Under the pieces are notes generated by a model. The model did no database searches. It was not told where the DNA came from and saw only the letters and a program-made list of their open reading frames with translations. A DNA stretch of 56,308 bases, taken from Crocinitomicaceae bacterium (GTDB taxonomy: Bacteria > Bacteroidota > Bacteroidia > Flavobacteriales_D > Crocinitomicaceae). Shown here in pieces: positions 5,211-14,372 of the stretch. The position numbers and the translations under genes were made by a program. The stretch is taken from positions 1 to 56,308 of the forward strand of contig JAQXCN010000058.1 in NCBI GenBank assembly GCA_029251865.1, given 5' to 3'. Position 1 is the first letter of the stretch; every line of letters begins with the position of its first letter.

Positions 5211-5753
5211 ATGTATGGACTCGTAAATAAGGCAATCAAAGAATTAGTTGTCGATAACCATGGCCAAGAAAAATGGCTGGAGATTTGCTCAGAGGCTGGA
5301 TTTGAAGAATCCGATTTTATTTCTTTAAGTCCATATCCGGATAAACTTACGTATGACCTTGTCGGTGCTGCGAGTAAGGTGCTTAAGGCAGACTCCAAAG
5401 ATATCTTAGAGGCCTTTGGTGAATACTGGATTTTGTACACAGCGGATCAAGGTTATGGAGACCTGCTTGACCTTTCAGGGTCATCTTTTGTAGAGTTCTT
5501 GGGTAATTTAGATATGTTGCATCTGAGAATTAATAACATGATGCCTGAGTTGAAAGCGCCTCTTTTTTCAACACAAAATGAGACAGATTCATCTGTTGAG
5601 TTGCTATACAAATCTCATAGAAAAGGTATGGTTCCAATGCTACGAGGATTAATAAAGGGTCTTGGTAAACGGTTTGATATGGTCGTTAATATCCAAGAAG
5701 TTGAATCAAAAGCAACAGAATCGAAAGGTCTGTGTTTCAAAATCACGTGGTAA
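5211..5753 (+). CDS. H-NOX haem nitric-oxide sensor protein
   Basis: This stand-alone haem NO/oxygen-binding protein has 180 residues, the usual length. The proximal haem ligand is His104 (in DMLHLRI), with a conserved proline at 117, and the haem-propionate clamp Y-x-S-x-R is intact at Tyr133, Ser135 and Arg137. The position that carries an oxygen-stabilising tyrosine in O2-binding members (five residues after the arginine) is Pro142 here, so the pocket should favour NO over O2. Family knowledge: stand-alone H-NOX proteins control a partner histidine kinase or cyclic-di-GMP enzyme encoded next door. Here a histidine kinase follows after 25 bases, so it is the likely partner. Confidence 0.93.
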   Translation: MYGLVNKAIKELVVDNHGQEKWLEICSEAGFEESDFISLSPYPDKLTYDLVGAASKVLKADSKDILEAFGEYWILYTADQGYGDLLDLSGSSFVEFLGNLDMLHLRINNMMPELKAPLFSTQNETDSSVELLYKSHRKGMVPMLRGLIKGLGKRFDMVVNIQEVESKATESKGLCFKITW

Positions 5754-5778
5754 TTAAGCCAAAATTTGAATTTAAGAT

Positions 5779-8700
5779 TTGACCAGAAAAATATTTCCAA
5801 AGAACATAATAGATGAAGTAAAGGTTCAAGCCGAAAGAGTTTTGGAGCTTACTAAAAAGCTGTGTGCCATTCATGATGTATTTCTTTGCTTTGGTGACAA
5901 AAATGAAATACATTTTATGCCTAATGAGCCGCCAATAAAAAATGTTTTTTTAGAGCTTCATGGAAAGGTAATACAGACAGGCCAACACCAAATAATTAGT
6001 AAGCCGGATTTTGATCTAACTTCATTTTACAGTTTACCTATTATAAATTCAGAGGGAAATATTTTGGGTTCAATTTGTCTTGTGAATAAGAAAAAAATCA
6101 GTTTAGACAGTTTTCAAATAGAAACACTTGACTTATATGTTCAAAGGTTAGTTTTCTTACTTTCCCCATATAACGTGGGCTCTCCAGAAAGAAATGCTTC
6201 TGTCCTACTTAATACCTCCTCTCCTTACTTTTTTAAAGTCAATCAGGTACTCGAAGTCATGGAAATAGGGGTTAATTTCCGAAAGTCAATACCAGAAATA
6301 AAAAGTGGTGATAGTTTATTTAAGTATTTCCAAATTGATAAAAAAGATACCATTGAGGATCTGAAAATTGAAGAATTATGGTTCAGTAGAATGCATTTTT
6401 TAGATCTAAGGGGACTTAAGCAACGATATAAGTTTACAGCCAAGGAATCAGAGGGCTATATTTACATTTTGGCGGCTCCAATTGTAAATTCGAAATTTGC
6501 TCTCAAAAGTTATAACGTCACCGTAAATGACTTTCCTTTACATGACACTATTGCTGAATACCTGTTCCTTGAACAAACCTCAAGGAAGAGTCTAGAGGAA
6601 TCTAGAATTATTACACAAAACATCATTGCTAAAAACAAAGAAATTGTCAGAATTCAGAAGGAAAATGAGGCGCTTTCAAAGTTTCCTGAACAGAACCCAA
6701 ATCCTATTTTACGATTTGATTTAGATCTGAATTTAGTATATTCTAACGCAGCCTCCGAGGACTATTTTTTATCAGATTTTCAAATCAAAAATGGATATTT
6801 AGGGGAGAGCGCGTTACGTTCAAGATTGAATGAAATAATAACTTCTGATAAGAGGCACCATCATTTTTTTATTGACGCAAAGTTACACTACTATTCAGTT
6901 ACAATAGCTCTAATTACTGAGCTGGGCTATTTGAATATGTATGCGCACGATATTACGGGATATCGAGAACGAAATGAACGAAATCAAACCGCCTTAAAGG
7001 AATTAAATTCAAAGGTTGAAACACAACGCGAGTTTTATGAGTTTATTTTAAACAATCTCCCTGCAGATGTCGCCGTTTTTGATAAAAATCATAAATATGT
7101 TTTTATAAATCCAAAAGGAATTCAGGACGAAAAGGTTAGGGATTACATGATTGGGAAAGATGATTATGACTACTGCCGCTTAAAGGGTGTTCCAAGTGAA
7201 ATGGCAGATAAAAGGCGTGCATTATTTAATGAAGTATTACGTTCCAAAAAGAGTAAAATTTGGGTTGACGACCTTATTAATAAAGAAGGTATTCGGAATG
7301 TGATTCATCGTACAATGGGTCCACTGTTTGATGAAAAAGGTGAAGTTCGTTTTGTTATTGGGTATGGTATGGAAATAACGCAACGTGTGACCGCGGAAGA
7401 AGAGAATGTGAGGTTGTCTTTAGTTGCTAAAAACACCAATAATGGGGTTTTAATGTTGGATACAGAAATGATGATAACATGGGCAAACCAAGCTATGATC
7501 GATCGGTCTGGATACAGCTTAGAGGAAATGCTGGGTAGAAATCCAAGAGAGTTTATTTCAAATGGTACAGAATCTCAAGAATTGAAAAGGTTAAAAGAGG
7601 CCATAAAACTAAAGCAAAATGTGGAAGTTGAAATGCTTCATTCTGATAAAAGTGGTTCTGAATACTATGTTTCTTTGAATTTACAACCTCTTTTTGATGC
7701 AAACAACATGCATAGCGGTTTTATGATGGTGGAGTTTGATATTACGGAACGAATCTCAAGTGAAAAAACAATTCAGAACCTCAACGTAAACCTTGAAAGG
7801 TTGGTTCAGGAAAAAACAGCCAAAAATATGGAATTGGCCTCATCTCTTCGTGACCAAGAAAAAATGGTTACTATTGGTGAATTGGCTTCTGGTGTTGCTC
7901 ATGATCTTAATACGCCACTTGGTGCTATAAAAAGTGGTACTGAAAATGTAAGCTACACCTTAGATGTTCTTTTCAAAAAACTTTTACCTCAAAGCTCTTC
8001 GGAAGATATAGAATATGCCTTTAATAGAGCTTCAAGAAGTGACTTCGAGCTTTTTGTTGGTGGTGTTCAGATGCGTAAAGAGCAAAGAGAGATTATGTCT
8101 TTCTTGACAACTCAGGATTCAGGTTTTTCAAATGACCAATTAAACGATATTGCAATACTGATGGTTAAAGCTCGTGTTAAGCCTGAAGACTCAAAAGAAA
8201 TTCAATTTATTTTGAGGTCACAAGCCCCCCTAGTCTTATTAGACCTCATCCACAATGTTAGACTCGTTTTTTCATTTATAAAAACAATTTCAACATCGGG
8301 TAATCGTGCAACCGAGGTTATTCAAAATCTTCGTTTATTCATAAGAGAGAAGCGTAACACGGCATCGGGAAATGTGAATATTAAGAACAATATTAATACG
8401 GTCCTAAATGTATTTAGTCACAAAATTAAAAACATTGTAGAACTGACTTTTGATATCGATAGTTCGATAAATATTAAGGGATATGATGTTCGTCTTTTTC
8501 AACTGTGGTCGAATTTAATCAAGAATGCATTGGAAAGTATGGAGGATCAGCAAGGACTGAAAACCTTGAAACTATACTCTGAAACAACCAAAGATGATTA
8601 CTTTATTACTGTTGAAAATAATGGTCCCGAGATTTCTGAAAAAAACCAAGTAAAAATCTTCAATAAGTTTTTTACCACCAAGGGTAAGAAAAAAGGTTCG

Positions 8701-8814
8701 GGCCTAGGATTAAATATTGTGAAAAATGTTCTAGAGGAGCACCAGGGGAGGGTTGTTTTGGAGTCAAATTCCAATTTCACACGTTTTATTATCAATTTTA
8801 AAAGAGAAAAATGA
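5779..8814 (+). CDS. soluble GAF-PAS sensor histidine kinase, likely H-NOX partner
   Basis: The protein has 1011 residues and no evident membrane segment. The start is TTG (5779-5781), since the first in-frame ATG would remove part of the N-terminal GAF-like domain (about 10-130). PAS domains follow near 303-395, 418-540 and 547-665, then a short coiled coil and the kinase core. The phospho-acceptor is His708 in GVAHDLNTPLG, the N-box is around Asn916 and the glycine-rich ATP lid GSGLGL starts at 973. About 140 residues separate the phospho-His helix from the second dimerisation helix, roughly 90 more than usual. Its stop overlaps the start of the receiver gene (ATGA), implying coupled translation. 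By position it should receive the H-NOX signal (inference). Confidence 0.92.
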   Translation: MTRKIFPKNIIDEVKVQAERVLELTKKLCAIHDVFLCFGDKNEIHFMPNEPPIKNVFLELHGKVIQTGQHQIISKPDFDLTSFYSLPIINSEGNILGSICLVNKKKISLDSFQIETLDLYVQRLVFLLSPYNVGSPERNASVLLNTSSPYFFKVNQVLEVMEIGVNFRKSIPEIKSGDSLFKYFQIDKKDTIEDLKIEELWFSRMHFLDLRGLKQRYKFTAKESEGYIYILAAPIVNSKFALKSYNVTVNDFPLHDTIAEYLFLEQTSRKSLEESRIITQNIIAKNKEIVRIQKENEALSKFPEQNPNPILRFDLDLNLVYSNAASEDYFLSDFQIKNGYLGESALRSRLNEIITSDKRHHHFFIDAKLHYYSVTIALITELGYLNMYAHDITGYRERNERNQTALKELNSKVETQREFYEFILNNLPADVAVFDKNHKYVFINPKGIQDEKVRDYMIGKDDYDYCRLKGVPSEMADKRRALFNEVLRSKKSKIWVDDLINKEGIRNVIHRTMGPLFDEKGEVRFVIGYGMEITQRVTAEEENVRLSLVAKNTNNGVLMLDTEMMITWANQAMIDRSGYSLEEMLGRNPREFISNGTESQELKRLKEAIKLKQNVEVEMLHSDKSGSEYYVSLNLQPLFDANNMHSGFMMVEFDITERISSEKTIQNLNVNLERLVQEKTAKNMELASSLRDQEKMVTIGELASGVAHDLNTPLGAIKSGTENVSYTLDVLFKKLLPQSSSEDIEYAFNRASRSDFELFVGGVQMRKEQREIMSFLTTQDSGFSNDQLNDIAILMVKARVKPEDSKEIQFILRSQAPLVLLDLIHNVRLVFSFIKTISTSGNRATEVIQNLRLFIREKRNTASGNVNIKNNINTVLNVFSHKIKNIVELTFDIDSSINIKGYDVRLFQLWSNLIKNALESMEDQQGLKTLKLYSETTKDDYFITVENNGPEISEKNQVKIFNKFFTTKGKKKGSGLGLNIVKNVLEEHQGRVVLESNSNFTRFIINFKREK

Positions 8815-9221
8815 GTCAGTTTAAGAACGCCGTCATATGTATTGATGATGACCCTATGATTCTTCAGGTTTTGGGTTTTCAAATGGAAAAGTATTTGGAT
8901 ACGTCAGATACATTAATAGAACTTTATACTGAGCCTTCCAAAGCACTCGGGGATATCAAATCACGTGTGTTTGATGATGTCGATATTCTTTTTTGCATAG
9001 TTGATTATCAAATGCCGCATATGTCTGGAGCGAAACTTATAAGGTCAATAAAGGAGACGCACCCAACAATACCTTGTGTTATGCTTTCTGGACAGGCTAA
9101 TTCCACTCAAATTGAAGCGCTTGAAAATGAAGGCTTATTAGAAATGTTTCTGCAAAAGCCATGGGAAGAATCAGATCTTAAAGGATGTCTTGAACAAATA
9201 AAAAAACGCCATGAAGATTAG
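8811..9221 (+). CDS. single-domain response regulator (receiver only)
   Basis: The 136-residue protein is a receiver domain with no output domain. The acidic pocket is Asp12-Asp13-Asp14, the phospho-acceptor Asp65 (VDYQMP), the conserved Ser93 (MLSGQ) and Lys116 (QKPW). It overlaps the upstream kinase gene by four bases and the downstream kinase gene by eleven, so the locus is probably one transcript. Lacking a DNA-binding or enzymatic domain, it must act by binding a protein partner or by passing phosphate on. It closely resembles the second receiver at 12606-13013 (shared CxDDDPxILQxLGFQ pattern), suggesting duplication of a kinase-receiver pair. Confidence 0.93.
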   Translation: MSQFKNAVICIDDDPMILQVLGFQMEKYLDTSDTLIELYTEPSKALGDIKSRVFDDVDILFCIVDYQMPHMSGAKLIRSIKETHPTIPCVMLSGQANSTQIEALENEGLLEMFLQKPWEESDLKGCLEQIKKRHED

Positions 9222-12200
9222 GATTCAGTTATTTATACTCGGTCTAATTGGTATTCCATTAGCCCTTTTCTCTCAAACAATGTCGAATGAAGAGGGAATT
9301 GAATATTATAACGCCATTATATCCGATCCAAATAGTTCAGATACGGCCATTGCACATTCCTATTTAGAATTATCATCTCTTCTTTATGTCTCCAACATAG
9401 ACACAATGATTCCTTTGTGTAACCGAGTGATTGAAATCGTTGGACCTAAACTTGCTCAATCTCCTGCAGAAAAGGAAAGGATGGTGTTATTAAACCTTTA
9501 TTCAGGTGCCTTAAACAATATTGCAGTTGTTTATATGACGAATGGAGAGATTGAAAGATGTTTGGATTATTTGGAACAAAGTCTTGAGATTTGTCAAAAA
9601 ACAGCGGATAATTATCAAATTGCTACAGCGTTAAATAATATTGGTTATATATTGAACGACCAGGGTAATATAACCAAAGCACTCGATTACTACCATCAGA
9701 GTTTAGAGATTTCGAAGAAAATAGATGATAAAATAGGAATTGCTACGCTTCTAAATAATATTGCAGCGATATATAAAGAACAAAATAATTTAACAGAAGC
9801 ATTAGATTATTATCAGAGAAGTCTTCCAATGCTTCAATCAGAACGCCAACAGCAAAAAATTTCAGGTGTATATAACAGTATTGGTTCAGTTATAGAGCGG
9901 CAAGGCAATAAAAATCTTGCCATGAAGTACTATTTAAAATCTCTTGAGATCGCAAGGGAAATTAAAGATAAAAAGGGTGTGGCCAACTGTTACAGTTCAT
10001 TGGCTGGCTTATATTTGAGTAATAATGAAATTGATAGTGCATTCATATATCACGATAAGAGTTTGGCACTGAGAAGGACAATTGGTTTTAAGGATGGTAT
10101 TGCGATTTCAACGGTAAAATTGGCAGAAATTGAATTTCTAAGAAACAAACCAAGAAGCGCCAAATTATATGCCCTTGAGAGTTTAAAGATTTCTCAGGAA
10201 ATAGGCTTTCCAAGAAATATTATAAAAGCCACGAAATTACTGAGTGAAATTTATGAAGTTGAAAATAATAGCAGCGAAGCCTTAAAAATGCTTCGGTTAA
10301 ATATCCAATTCAAAGATAGTATGGATATAATTGAATATAACAAGGCAATAATAGAAAGGCAAGCGAAGTACGAGTACGATATCACAAGAAAAAAAGACGT
10401 GTTAGAGCATGATCTTGAACTTGCAATCAAAGATGAAAAAATCAAAAATGGGAAATCTTTCAATTACCTTCTTGTTGCACTGCTTGCTCTTGTGGCCATA
10501 TTTATGATTGTGATTATTGAGCGATTAAGAAAAATAAATAACCTTAAATTGAGTTTAGCGATTAAGAATTCTGAAAATGAAAAGTTAGTAGTCAATCTGG
10601 AATCGGTTGTTGAAAATAGAACTTTAAACCTAAAGGAATCGCTTGAGCTTATAGAGGTCAATGAGAAAAACTATAGAGATCTTTTAGATAAATCCTCTGA
10701 AATGATTCAAATGCTGGATACTCAGGGATTTATAACCTATGTGAATCAGGCTTGGTTAAATAACATGTCTTTTAGTTCTTTAGACGAGGTTAAGGGCCGG
10801 TCGATTTCTGATTTTCTTACTGAAGAGACGGGAATAAAATTCCAAACTATTATGCCGGAGCTGATGCAAGGTCATTCCGTTGATGAGTTGTCTTGTGAAT
10901 TCCTTACAAGTAGGAGTCGTGAAATAATTCTCAAAGGTCGTACGCGGCCGATTTTGAAAGATGGTGAATTTTTTGGTTCTCAAGCTTTTTTCTTTAACGT
11001 CACGGATGTGGAAAAAGCGAAACGTGAGATGGATCAGATGGCCAGATTCAAGGAAATCATGTTGAATATTACCACGGAATACATCAATGCACCAATTTCT
11101 GAAATCGATAATGTAATTAACACCTCTCTTTTCGAAATCGCACAATTTTCATCAGCGGATCGCGCCTATGTGTTTAAGTATGATTTTGAGAAGGAAATTT
11201 GTTCTATTACACACGAGTGGGTGGCTGAGGGAGTTCCTTCTCAGATCGAGGAACTTAAAGCTATGCCGTTCTCGAAGGTTCCTTTGTCTCTCAGTTTACA
11301 TAAAAAAGGTGAGCTTGTTGAGTTTTCTGATGTTGCTGATGTTAAAGATGAAAGAGTTCGGAAAGTTCTAAGCGATGAAGGAACGCAGAGTATGATTTCT
11401 ATTCCAATGATGCAAGATAATGAAGCCATTGGTTTTGTTGGTTTTGATATCATGAAAAAGAAACGTGAATTTACGGCGGATGAAAAGAATTTGCTTAGAA
11501 TATATTCCCAGATGATGCTTAATGTTTTTAACAGGATTTCCTATATCGAGGAGCTTCAAAATACCAAAGAAGAGCTCGCTAAGATCAATCGTTCGTTGGA
11601 GAAAAAAGTAATGGAAAACACGAAGAAAAACATGGACCTGTCACGCTCAATTTTGGAGCAGGAAAAACTAGTTACTATAGGTGAAATATCTGCTGGAATT
11701 GCACATGATTTAAACACGCCTTTAGGTACAATTAGGGTAGGTGCGGACAATATCAATTTTATTTTAAATAGTATTTTTAATGGTACCATTTCTGTCTTTT
11801 CAAAAGAAGAACTTGCTCATATCGTTAACCATGTTGAGAAAAACAAAATTGAAATGTATGTTGGCGGCCTTCAAATGCGAAAAGAGAAGGTGAAAATGTT
11901 GGAATATCTTAATGGTTCTTTTCATGATGAATCACCTGAATATTTGGATGAAATTGGTGATTTATTGGTGAAATGTAGATTTGATATAACACAAGAAGAG
12001 GAGATTTCATTGATTTTATCAAAACCTTGTGCCAAGGAATACCTGCAAATAATGAATCAATTACAAATGGCTATGGCTCAGCTTGAAACCATACGGAAAT
12101 CAAGTGATAAGGCAGTTCGTGTCGTGCAGGACATGCGCGCGTTTATTAAAGGAGAAAGTGTTGTTGAGCAAAAGAAAATTAATCTTCGAGATAATATTTC

Positions 12201-12609
12201 AACGGTTTTAGGTGTTTTCAATTATGAAATCAGTCTTAATGTAAATCTTATATTTGATGTTGATACTTCCATTGAATTTATGGGGTACGATATTAAATTA
12301 TTTCAACTTTGGTCAAATATTGTTAAAAATGGTCTTGAAGCCATGTCAGAACAGAAGGAAAAATACCTTGGTATTTTTGCCGAAAAGACAGGAACGCAGT
12401 TAAGAGTTGTATTCGAAAATAATGGGCCAAAAATCCCTAAAGAAATAGCAGAGAGTATTTTTCAAAAATTTTATACCACCAAAGGAACGAAGAGTGGTTC
12501 TGGTTTAGGATTGAGTATTGTGAAAAATGTGCTTAAGGAACACAATGCAGATATAATTCTTGAGTCTGACGAAGCACGGACAAAATTTATAATTACTTTT
12601 GAATTATGA
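9211..12609 (+). CDS. membrane TPR-PAS-GAF sensor histidine kinase
   Basis: The protein has 1132 residues. A signal peptide (about 1-22) is followed by tetratricopeptide repeats (about 60-350), placing a protein-interaction sensor outside the inner membrane. A single membrane helix (about 418-438), a coiled coil, a PAS domain (about 487-600) and a GAF domain (about 620-775) precede the kinase core. His832 is the phospho-acceptor (GIAHDLNTPLG), with an N-box VKNGLEAM and a GSGLGL lid. The kinase core, including a long insertion between the two dimerisation helices, is clearly related to the kinase at 5779-8814. The start at 9211 lies inside the previous receiver gene. The ligand is unknown. 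Confidence 0.92.
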   Translation: MKIRIQLFILGLIGIPLALFSQTMSNEEGIEYYNAIISDPNSSDTAIAHSYLELSSLLYVSNIDTMIPLCNRVIEIVGPKLAQSPAEKERMVLLNLYSGALNNIAVVYMTNGEIERCLDYLEQSLEICQKTADNYQIATALNNIGYILNDQGNITKALDYYHQSLEISKKIDDKIGIATLLNNIAAIYKEQNNLTEALDYYQRSLPMLQSERQQQKISGVYNSIGSVIERQGNKNLAMKYYLKSLEIAREIKDKKGVANCYSSLAGLYLSNNEIDSAFIYHDKSLALRRTIGFKDGIAISTVKLAEIEFLRNKPRSAKLYALESLKISQEIGFPRNIIKATKLLSEIYEVENNSSEALKMLRLNIQFKDSMDIIEYNKAIIERQAKYEYDITRKKDVLEHDLELAIKDEKIKNGKSFNYLLVALLALVAIFMIVIIERLRKINNLKLSLAIKNSENEKLVVNLESVVENRTLNLKESLELIEVNEKNYRDLLDKSSEMIQMLDTQGFITYVNQAWLNNMSFSSLDEVKGRSISDFLTEETGIKFQTIMPELMQGHSVDELSCEFLTSRSREIILKGRTRPILKDGEFFGSQAFFFNVTDVEKAKREMDQMARFKEIMLNITTEYINAPISEIDNVINTSLFEIAQFSSADRAYVFKYDFEKEICSITHEWVAEGVPSQIEELKAMPFSKVPLSLSLHKKGELVEFSDVADVKDERVRKVLSDEGTQSMISIPMMQDNEAIGFVGFDIMKKKREFTADEKNLLRIYSQMMLNVFNRISYIEELQNTKEELAKINRSLEKKVMENTKKNMDLSRSILEQEKLVTIGEISAGIAHDLNTPLGTIRVGADNINFILNSIFNGTISVFSKEELAHIVNHVEKNKIEMYVGGLQMRKEKVKMLEYLNGSFHDESPEYLDEIGDLLVKCRFDITQEEEISLILSKPCAKEYLQIMNQLQMAMAQLETIRKSSDKAVRVVQDMRAFIKGESVVEQKKINLRDNISTVLGVFNYEISLNVNLIFDVDTSIEFMGYDIKLFQLWSNIVKNGLEAMSEQKEKYLGIFAEKTGTQLRVVFENNGPKIPKEIAESIFQKFYTTKGTKSGSGLGLSIVKNVLKEHNADIILESDEARTKFIITFEL

Positions 12610-13013
12610 GCGAAATGAGATATGCTGTTGTGTGCGTTGATGACGACCCATATATCCTTCAAATGTTAGGTTTTCAACTTTCCAAAATCATGGATCAATC
12701 TCACACGCTCATAGAGTATTTCACAGATCCCGATCAAGCGATAGAAAATATTGACTTATTAATCGAAGAGGATATTGATATTATGTTTGTAATGGTCGAT
12801 TATCAGATGCCATCAATGACAGGTGCAGAGTTGATACGTAAATTGAAATTGAAGTACCAAGATTTAAAATGTATTATGTTATCCGGCCAAGCGAATAGAA
12901 CCTCTGTGGACTCTCTTAAAACAGAAAATCTTCTTGAGGAATTTATAGAAAAACCTTGGGATGAAGATGAACTTTTTGACACGCTTCGACCTCTAATTGC
13001 ATTACCTAAATAA
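12606..13013 (+). CDS. single-domain response regulator (receiver only), second copy
   Basis: This 135-residue receiver-only protein has the acidic triad at 12-14, phospho-acceptor Asp65 (VDYQMP), Ser93 and Lys116 (EKPW), all at the same positions as in the receiver at 8811-9221. It overlaps the TPR kinase gene by four bases (ATGA), so the two are translationally coupled. No output domain is present. The pair kinase plus receiver therefore occurs twice in tandem downstream of H-NOX. Confidence 0.93.
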   Translation: MSEMRYAVVCVDDDPYILQMLGFQLSKIMDQSHTLIEYFTDPDQAIENIDLLIEEDIDIMFVMVDYQMPSMTGAELIRKLKLKYQDLKCIMLSGQANRTSVDSLKTENLLEEFIEKPWDEDELFDTLRPLIALPK

Positions 13014-13022
13014 ACCAGTTGA

Positions 13023-14372
13023 ATGAAAACAATACTAATACTTGGTGCGGGGCTTTCCGCTTCTTCCATGATTCGATATCTATTAAACGCATCAAAGGAG
13101 CAGGGTTGGTCTGTACGAATTGTTGATAGAGATTTGGAGCGGGTTGAAAAATTGGTTGATGGTTTTTCCGAAGCAAAAGCGCTCTCTTTTAATGCGTTGG
13201 ACAGAGCACAACGTATAGACGAGATTCAAAATTCAGACCTTGTTATATCCATGTTGCCTGCACGTTTTCATGTTGAGATTGCGCAAGACTGTATTCTACT
13301 TCACAAAAACCTGATCACACCATCTTACATTTCAGATGAAATGAGAGCCTTAGATAAGGACGCAAAGGATTCAGGAATTGTAATAATGAATGAAATAGGG
13401 GTGGATCCTGGAATTGATCATATGAGTGCAATGAAAATCATTGATCACATCAAGGGTATAGGTGGAAAGCTTAATAGCTTTAAGTCTTTCTGCGGAGGCC
13501 TTGTTGCTGAAGAATATGATGATAATCCTTGGAGGTATAAATTTACATGGAATCCAAGAAATGTTGTTTTGGCTGGTAAAGGCGGTACAGCAATGTTTAT
13601 GGATAATCACCAATTTAAATATATTCCTTACAACCGATTGTTTGATCGTCTGGATAGAATTACAATCGAAAATCATGGAAAATTTGTAGGCTATCCTAAC
13701 CGTGATTCACTTTCTTATAAAGAGACTTATGGCTTAGACGGAATCGCTACGTTGTATAGAGGCACCCTTAGAAGACCTAATTTTTGTAAGGGGTTCAATG
13801 TATTTATAGAACTAGGTATGACAGATGATTCCTTTGCAATGACCAACGCAGAGGCGCTTACACCTCGCGATTTCTTAAACGCATTCCTGCCGTATATTCC
13901 TAATTTGTCCGTGGAACAAAAATTCAAATACTTTTTGAGGGAAGACAGAATGTATTTATATGATCAATTTGAATGGCTTGGTGTATTTGGTGATGACCAA
14001 GAATTTGGTTTTAAAGATGCAACACCAGCACAGCTTTTGGAAAAGCTTATGGTGCGTAAAATGTCATTAGCTGAAGATGATAAGGATATGCTTGTCATGT
14101 ATCATGAATTCGAATTCAAGCATGAAGGCAAGGCTAAAAAAATCACTTCGTCAATGATAAATATTGGAGAAGACCAAACCTACACGGCAATGGCGAACAC
14201 TGTTGGCTTGCCCCTGGCAATAGCAGCAAAAATGATTTTGAATAATCAAATTGCTACAAAAGGTGTTACCTTGCCAATAAACAAAGAAATTTACGAACCT
14301 ATTCTTGCGGAATTAAGTCAACATGGAATCGTGTTTAATGAGCAAGAACAAGAAATCAAAGAATATGTCTAA
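13023..14372 (+). CDS. saccharopine dehydrogenase-like NAD(P)-binding oxidoreductase
   Basis: The protein has 449 residues. An N-terminal Rossmann fold is shown by ILGAGLSASS (about residues 5-14) and an acidic residue after the second strand (VDRD). The central GVDPGIDHMSA pattern and the FCGGL stretch are typical of saccharopine reductases/dehydrogenases (Lys9 type), which interconvert saccharopine and aminoadipate semialdehyde plus glutamate. Bacterial members often have other or unknown substrates, and no lysine-catabolism partner is seen nearby. It begins nine bases after the second receiver gene and overlaps the DUF3467 gene by eight bases, so it may belong to the same transcript. Confidence 0.85.
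   Translation: MKTILILGAGLSASSMIRYLLNASKEQGWSVRIVDRDLERVEKLVDGFSEAKALSFNALDRAQRIDEIQNSDLVISMLPARFHVEIAQDCILLHKNLITPSYISDEMRALDKDAKDSGIVIMNEIGVDPGIDHMSAMKIIDHIKGIGGKLNSFKSFCGGLVAEEYDDNPWRYKFTWNPRNVVLAGKGGTAMFMDNHQFKYIPYNRLFDRLDRITIENHGKFVGYPNRDSLSYKETYGLDGIATLYRGTLRRPNFCKGFNVFIELGMTDDSFAMTNAEALTPRDFLNAFLPYIPNLSVEQKFKYFLREDRMYLYDQFEWLGVFGDDQEFGFKDATPAQLLEKLMVRKMSLAEDDKDMLVMYHEFEFKHEGKAKKITSSMINIGEDQTYTAMANTVGLPLAIAAKMILNNQIATKGVTLPINKEIYEPILAELSQHGIVFNEQEQEIKEYV

Follow-up and report, generated by a model that had tools for sequence, protein, structure and literature searches.

A Crocinitomicaceae H-NOX operon that most likely combines an H-NOX/HNOBA two-component channel and a paralogous channel facing the envelope

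The window analyzed here, a 56,308-nucleotide stretch corresponding to contig JAQXCN010000058.1 (C34) of the Crocinitomicaceae bacterium assembly GCA_029251865.1 (2.38 Mb in 86 contigs), holds five open reading frames (ORFs) on the plus strand that encode a stand-alone H-NOX sensor, a histidine kinase (HK1), a receiver (REC1), a second histidine kinase (HK2), and a second receiver (REC2). Their coordinates match those of an initial annotation made from the sequence alone, and they are overlapping or near-overlapping, as that annotation had described them: a gap of 25 bases separates H-NOX from HK1, and the overlaps amount to 4 bases for HK1 and REC1, 11 for REC1 and HK2, and 4 for HK2 and REC2. 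Our results indicate that the locus most likely comprises two channels, an H-NOX/HNOBA two-component system and, next to it, a paralogous one that faces the envelope. The features are as follows.

5211..5753, plus strand: H-NOX, stand-alone, 180 amino acids; PF07700, E 1.3e-46; best solved match Nostoc Alr2278
5779..8814, plus strand: HK1, with N-terminal region, HNOBA, PAS repeats, DHp with insert, and HATPase; TTG start; acceptor His708
6196..6648 (limits approximate), plus strand: HNOBA of HK1 and the start of the next helix, presumed H-NOX docking module; PF07701, profile search, and fold
7846..8811, plus strand: HK1 kinase core with long His-to-N-box spacing
8811..9221, plus strand: REC1, receiver-only, 136 amino acids; acidic pair, acceptor Asp65, Ser, and Lys intact
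9211..12609, plus strand: HK2, with signal-peptide-like start, TPR, transmembrane segment, PAS, GAF, DHp with insert, and HATPase; acceptor His832
11785..12018 (model residues 49-126), plus strand: predicted helical subdomain of HK2 inserted between DHp helix 1 and helix 2, from the AlphaFold core model
12606..13013, plus strand: REC2, receiver-only, 135 amino acids; active-site residues intact
13023..14372, plus strand: saccharopine-dehydrogenase-family gene, 9 bases 3' of REC2 (13014-13022); conserved neighbor

The operon and its recurrence in relatives

The gene set is beyond chance, as no other H-NOX was found in the genome and relatives show the same order. When species genomes were scanned with H-NOX, 68 loci were obtained, of which five carry the full order of H-NOX, HK1, receiver, HK2, and REC2 (L019, L021, L023, L052, and L066), with the TPR part frame-broken in L019 and two extra ORFs ahead of HK2 in L023. 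The order is cut by contig ends in two further loci (L020 and L022), is split over two contigs in one genome (G009; L026 and L109), and reads H-NOX-HK1-HK2-REC2 in L029, where no receiver directly follows HK1. The initial annotation had proposed looking for this five-gene order in relatives, and non-conservation is not what was found. Specifically, the locus is recurrent within the genus: across its 37 genomes, including that of the window, H-NOX is present in 13, REC2-like receivers in 17, and both in 11, and the gene order is retained in diverged congeners with 57-59% core identity. The closest loci by H-NOX (84-85% identity) lie in metagenome-assembled genomes labeled Flavobacteriales or Crocinitomicaceae.

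Simpler arrangements are also present. H-NOX with an HNOBA kinase and one receiver accounts for 25 of the 68 loci, two of which reach a contig end and 10 of which have a dehydrogenase gene next, and another six loci combine one kinase with two receivers. In more distant Bacteroidota, L053, L055, L058, L062, L064, and L068 have one HNOBA kinase followed by two tandem receivers, and such loci represent an alternative route to twin receivers.

Downstream of REC2, the saccharopine-dehydrogenase-family gene is a conserved neighbor whose role in signaling is putative; in 23 other loci, including ones that lack H-NOX or HK2, a receiver precedes such a gene at 3-12 bases. A scan for promoters and terminators gave no excess over shuffled sequence (34 versus 35.2, and 4 versus 5.2) and was uninformative, and a search for RNA elements returned only tRNAs.

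The H-NOX sensor and its probable partner kinase

H-NOX proteins are defined by a heme-ligating His and a Y-x-S-x-R motif. The protein encoded here matches PF07700 with 159 bits (cut-off, 25.5) over positions 1-162 of the 163 in the model, has Nostoc Alr2278 as its best match among solved structures (E 5.5e-48), and retains the heme-ligand His104, Pro112, and Tyr133-x-Ser135-x-Arg137. Across 67 aligned H-NOX sequences, the window's included, the His, Tyr, and Arg are present in all 67 and the Ser in 66. Met143 occupies the distal position, which we take to be the place of the O2-stabilizing tyrosine, and Tyr stands at that position in none of the 67 aligned sequences. Because this distal Tyr is missing, the ligand is predicted to be nitric oxide (NO) rather than O2.

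The kinase that follows carries the module through which such a sensor would be expected to act. Residues ~140-290 of HK1 correspond to HNOBA, with PF07701 reaching 28.6 bits against the segment (cut-off, 23.4) and 22.6 bits, slightly below that cut-off, against the whole protein; at E 0.01, 52 of 57 HNOBA segments match PF07701, the window's among them. The HNOBA alignment comprised 56 of the 57 listed segments (L049 excluded) plus the window. A profile of the family matches the PAS structures of a Nostoc kinase (2p08 and 2p04; E 2e-19) and soluble guanylate cyclase (sGC). Further, an AlphaFold model of the segment (predicted local distance difference test [pLDDT], 89.4) adopts a PAS-like fold with a C-terminal helix at 127-166, and a Foldseek search of the PDB with this model gave 22 matches at E <= 0.001, all of them to sGC or to the PAS domain of the Nostoc kinase. 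Because of these profile and fold matches, H-NOX and HK1 look like an sGC front end split over two proteins, in which HNOBA is the presumed docking module for H-NOX. In the initial annotation, HK1 appeared as a soluble GAF-PAS kinase; solubility fits, in that no clear membrane span is present (a marginal hydrophobic window lies inside the core), while GAF gave no Pfam match at E 0.01 and the HNOBA domain had been taken for a plain PAS region. The catalytic motifs H-D-L-N-T-P, N box (WSNLIKN/WSNIVKN), and GSGLGL are intact in both HK1 and HK2.

Natural losses of H-NOX bear on this coupling. Six congeners, 80-94% complete, keep the kinase and a REC2-like receiver without an intact H-NOX (G006, G012, G019, G021, G026, and G036), and in five of them HNOBA is absent, truncated, or decayed. 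In G019, HNOBA has been cut out of HK1, and a stretch of 24 codons upstream shows similarity to the C-terminal end of H-NOX (54%, E 0.006); in G036, H-NOX persists as a remnant (41 residues aligned, E 3e-7) beside an HNOBA match of only 26%. Conversely, 32 HK1-type rows were coded H-NOX-positive, and the 31 besides the window all have an HNOBA match by BLAST. The co-loss test covered 38 of 74 cores, with HK2, pseudokinases, and distant rows set aside; G036 (L107) was coded as decayed despite its 26% match, and G009 (L109) as H-NOX-positive with its H-NOX on another contig. Support from co-loss for the view that H-NOX acts through HNOBA is good but not statistically decisive. H-NOX is very likely wired to HK1, and a path from NO through H-NOX to HK1 is well supported, given the HNOBA domain in HK1 and its loss or decay in five of the six congeners without H-NOX. 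As kinase and receiver are both kept where H-NOX has been lost, they would also have a role without NO.

Other outputs were seen elsewhere behind the same front end. At L059:1812-3980, L065:5460-7136, and L080:10547-12286, the gene after H-NOX joins HNOBA to a SpoIIE-type phosphatase rather than to a kinase, and these fusions represent an alternative output for an H-NOX/HNOBA sensor. In L051, HNOBA is followed by a HisKA_2 match. In G003, H-NOX accompanies an HNOBA protein (L044:10552-12897) that matches HATPase weakly and HisKA not at all, and a search of G003 for REC2-like receivers found none.

The second kinase and the specificity of the pairs

HK2 was confirmed as the TPR-PAS-GAF kinase that had been proposed, and its sensor looks extracytoplasmic, in that Pfam recovers its TPR, PAS, GAF, and kinase domains and its hydrophobic stretches fall at residues 1-25 and 414-443, the latter a single span. 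From this layout we infer that the TPR part is periplasmic and that HK2 faces the envelope. The sensor part differs among relatives and the PAS-GAF-core remains constant. The TPR form stands next to H-NOX in L019, L020, L021, L022, and the window, and occurs without H-NOX in G019; in L029, L052, and L066, HK2 is short and has no recognized sensor part. Differently headed forms of HK2 that lack a TPR part are preceded by two secreted-like ORFs at L023:13605-15083 and L109:3714-5208 (G009), and two such ORFs also precede a differently headed kinase at L108:6831-8322; the paired ORFs encode 286-358 and 144-151 amino acids. G005 carries a cassette of similar make-up, including a REC1-like receiver, on a contig other than that of L029.

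The initial annotation had wired H-NOX to both pairs, joining NO to the TPR signal through the two receivers. The part of this that is supported is coupling to one kinase. Gene order and overlaps would suit direct control of both kinases by H-NOX, but HK2 has no Pfam match to HNOBA, persists in two genomes in which H-NOX was not detected (G019 and G026), and differs from HK1 at its recognition residues, so that we consider such dual control highly improbable.

The two kinases are nonetheless kin. Their cores are 41% identical, each acceptor His lying 202 residues from the N box (versus 141 in a cyanobacterial kinase from the same set), and in an AlphaFold model of the HK2 core (mean pLDDT, 82.6), DHp helices 1 and 2 are separated by five short helices. 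This insert is not peculiar to the operon, as a spacing of 200 also occurs in the HNOBA kinases of L053 and L061 from more distant Bacteroidota; the 50 Foldseek matches listed for the insert-bearing core were ordinary kinase cores, and none was named as a relative of the insert. The core alignment took in 48 of 71 listed segments plus both window cores. In a tree, all 13 HK2 rows group together as a single clade (SH-aLRT 100). HK1 and HK2 appear, from their sequences, to be old paralogues that share an insert-bearing core.

This kinship bears on an explanation in which the genes are co-transcribed neighbors and nothing more, H-NOX-HK1-REC1 being an ordinary H-NOX two-component system and HK2-REC2 an unrelated pair in the same operon. 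The persistence of HK2 and REC2 without H-NOX in G019 and G026, the linkage of REC2 to a metabolic gene at 3-12 bases, and the changing sensor part of HK2 would all fit such an explanation. However, no core in the genome matches that of HK2 more closely than the HK1 core does (the next full-length match is 26% identical), both receivers are of one class, and diverged congeners retain the order, and we therefore regard mere adjacency as quite unlikely.

As had been proposed, neither receiver has an output domain, with PF00072 the sole Pfam match in each. The acidic pair, acceptor Asp, Ser/Thr, and Lys are present in all 35 receivers checked (four groups, of 63 collected), and a PDB search with REC1 returned general receivers. 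REC1 and REC2 are 48% identical. In a careful tree of 47 of the 63 receivers (16 distant rows excluded), REC2 joins the receivers of single-pair, dehydrogenase-linked loci in one clade (support, 98/96). A recent tandem duplication, which would unite the first and second receivers of two-pair loci, was rejected by the approximately unbiased test (p-AU 0.0009), a value that is optimistic because an initial quick tree preceded the naming of the groups. The other clades tested were REC1 with REC2 (p 0.015) and REC1 with its REC1-like counterparts in other two-pair loci (p 0.04); given the latter, the two kinds of first receiver need not form one clade.

Pair specificity was scored at three kinase and four receiver positions, taken from the changed residues of the rewired HK853-RR468 interface as named in PDB titles and placed on these sequences partly by what we presume to be the equivalent sites. 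HK1 of the window clade has A,S,N (8/8) and HK2 has T,V,N (11/11), and REC1 has (M/L),I,V,Q (7/7) and REC2 has Y,I,M,Q (10/10); in single-pair loci, the residues are A,I,S for HK1 (14/14) and (F/Y),I,M,Q for the adjoining receivers. Because these residues are fixed within and different between pairs, they suggest that HK1/REC1 and HK2/REC2 form two parallel, insulated channels rather than one mixed circuit.

The rival to be weighed at this point is a convergent circuit, in which both kinases phosphorylate REC2 (and perhaps REC1), the signals are summed at the receiver, and REC1 serves as an accessory or a phosphate sink. This would fit the REC2-type receivers that adjoin HK1-type kinases in single-pair loci (98/96), the retention of HK1 and HK2 without REC1 in G026, and the arrangement of L029, where HK1 is followed directly by HK2 and REC2. 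However, fixed differences between the pairs occur at two of the three kinase and two of the four receiver positions, as insulation predicts; single-pair HK1 residues differ from those of two-pair HK1; and G005, the genome of L029, holds on another contig a REC1-like receiver with a different kinase. Convergence on one receiver is therefore unlikely in our estimation, if the least easily dismissed of these accounts.

We favor, with somewhat more than even confidence, a two-channel two-component operon whose receivers bind partners elsewhere. In the first channel, NO would bind the heme of H-NOX, which would dock on the HNOBA domain of soluble HK1 and alter its autokinase or phosphatase activity, and HK1 would in turn phosphorylate REC1. 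In the second, HK2, anchored in the inner membrane with its TPR part in the periplasm, would read an envelope or protein signal and phosphorylate REC2. The pairs would have diverged at their recognition residues such that each kinase mainly serves its own receiver, and the bare receivers would act by binding partners encoded elsewhere, in a CheY- or DivK-like manner, rather than via cyclic di-GMP (c-di-GMP). The HK2-REC2 pair is a lineage-specific companion that probably reads a signal from outside the membrane, and integration of NO with an envelope signal further downstream is possible.

Several points weigh against this two-channel operon. First, the co-loss comprises at most 4-5 independent events, with 3-4 of four supported pairs in the same direction and none in the opposite one (sign test, p 0.125 at best); most H-NOX-positive rows were found via H-NOX, so that their H-NOX state holds by construction, and the HNOBA states were coded by hand. 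Further, completeness is no higher than 80-89% in three of the six genomes without an intact H-NOX, with the locus itself covered, and G026 keeps HNOBA (53% identity) without H-NOX. Second, HK1-type kinases adjoin REC2-clade receivers in single-pair loci, and G026 has both kinases with REC2 alone, REC1 being gone; HK1-to-REC2 transfer is possible on account of these arrangements, and the recognition scoring omits two positions in DHp helix 2. Third, no NO-metabolism gene was found that ties the organism to NO: its genome has one COX1-family protein in all and therefore no additional NO reductase of that family, and ScdA_N has no match in the genome or in 22 congeners (four of 36 genomes in all). 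The ScdA_N counts, like those given below for GGDEF and a second pseudokinase, cover 23 of the 37 genus genomes. A tie to NO detoxification was rejected on the same two grounds.

Outputs, known systems, and significance

REC1 and REC2 are the only bare receivers among the 14 found in the genome, with open frames of 139 and 136 codons, respectively, and at least 210 codons in the other 12. An H-NOX-to-c-di-GMP pathway like HnoX-HnoK-HnoB of Shewanella, with its output enzyme elsewhere, could draw on the best NCBIfam match of both receivers, namely, the receiver part of NosR, a family of c-di-GMP-type NO regulators (E 7e-18 and 4e-16). Yet these matches reach 65 and 59 bits, far under the cut-off of 400, and GGDEF has no match in the window's genome or in any of 22 congeners, while across the 36 genomes searched nothing exceeded the cut-off (EAL and HD-GYP were not searched). 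With bare receivers and no GGDEF match, a c-di-GMP output is disfavored; the absence of a GGDEF match makes a known output of this type very unlikely, and we give this pathway next to no credence.

A concrete lead for the output comes from a pseudokinase that tracks HK2. Two further kinases in the genome match the whole insert-bearing core but have decayed ATP-binding boxes, at G000:C39:5351-8245 (L097:1352-4249) and G000:C22:2588-5083 (L098); both have TPR and GAF regions, by resemblance rather than Pfam, and no membrane span, and no receiver was found on either contig. In the six pseudokinase sequences viewed (the first kind in L097, L110, L112, and L113, and the second in L098 and L111), the acceptor His is kept in all six, but no glycine-rich box is left and the N box has changed. 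Full-length relatives of the C39 pseudokinase (37-85% identity; one of them in two pieces) occur in eight of the 37 genus genomes, its own included, and these eight are all among the nine genomes with HK2, the ninth being G005. Because the genomes are related, this tracking of HK2 is not independent evidence, and because single-pair genomes of the genus are without the C39 pseudokinase, it is not the target of every such receiver. The C22 type is full-length in only two of 23 genus genomes, and no conclusion rests on it. It is conceivable, at the level of a speculative and rather improbable extension, that a larger signaling web has this locus as its active half, in which the sole two stand-alone receivers found in the genome would dock, DivK-like, on the C39 and C22 pseudokinases and the NO and envelope signals would meet there.

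Parts of the operon have counterparts in described systems. Nostoc Alr2278 and the Nostoc punctiforme kinase PAS domain (2p04/2p08), the latter from a kinase whose label we take to be H-NOXA, show the same two elements, a stand-alone H-NOX and a histidine kinase with a PAS domain of the HNOBA type. As far as a comparison by PAS domain goes, the locus here differs from Nostoc in that a long insert interrupts the HK1 core and the genes after HK1 encode a receiver-only protein and a further kinase-receiver pair. Porphyromonas FimS-type kinases recall HK2, in that the NCBIfam FimS model matches it (E 8.8e-31), best over residues 191-448 with the TPR and membrane span; at 106.8 bits, this is far below the cut-off of 600, and HK2 adds PAS, GAF, and the insert and adjoins a bare receiver.

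That H-NOX adjoins a kinase is well known (PMC8846402, PMC8738867, PMC10746521, PMC12329717). In Shewanella oneidensis, the auxiliary H-NOX of HnoX-HnoK-HnoB/HnoD controls a kinase serving a receiver protein and, according to the same source (PMC8846402), the output is a c-di-GMP phosphodiesterase behind one H-NOX-linked kinase, whereas here the receivers are bare, no GGDEF was found, and there are two kinases. The Legionella H-NOX 2 locus, lpg2459-lpg2458-lpg2457, combines H-NOX, a kinase, and a CheY-like receiver-only protein (PMC8738867); the likeness is by description only, and the accessible portion of that source mentions no second pair and calls the pathway unconfirmed. In NosP-NosK-NosR, as presented in PMC12570481, a separate NO sensor also modulates a kinase and receiver, but NosP is a FIST-domain sensor rather than an H-NOX, and NosR, the nearest NCBIfam receiver family, carries a degenerate HD-GYP output. 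The initial annotation could match the architecture to no described system, and for the whole operon this holds in the open literature: among the matches listed, no title concerned two kinase-receiver pairs in an H-NOX operon or reported H-NOX from Flavobacteriales, with subscription papers mostly outside that search. It does not hold for the H-NOX and HNOBA-kinase half, which is of a known kind, or for H-NOX with a kinase and a receiver-only protein, given the Legionella locus.

The accessible text of reviews has H-NOX signaling end mostly in c-di-GMP enzymes or quorum sensing (PMC8738867, PMC8846402). Here, an H-NOX and HNOBA front end, common to animal sGC, precedes a kinase in a lineage in which no GGDEF protein was found, and another output must therefore exist. 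Finally, the series of loci, in which H-NOX and HNOBA are lost together, receivers are kept, the second pair is present or absent, and sensors are changed, provides a ready test of the putative H-NOX-HNOBA contact and of the predicted insulation of the pairs.

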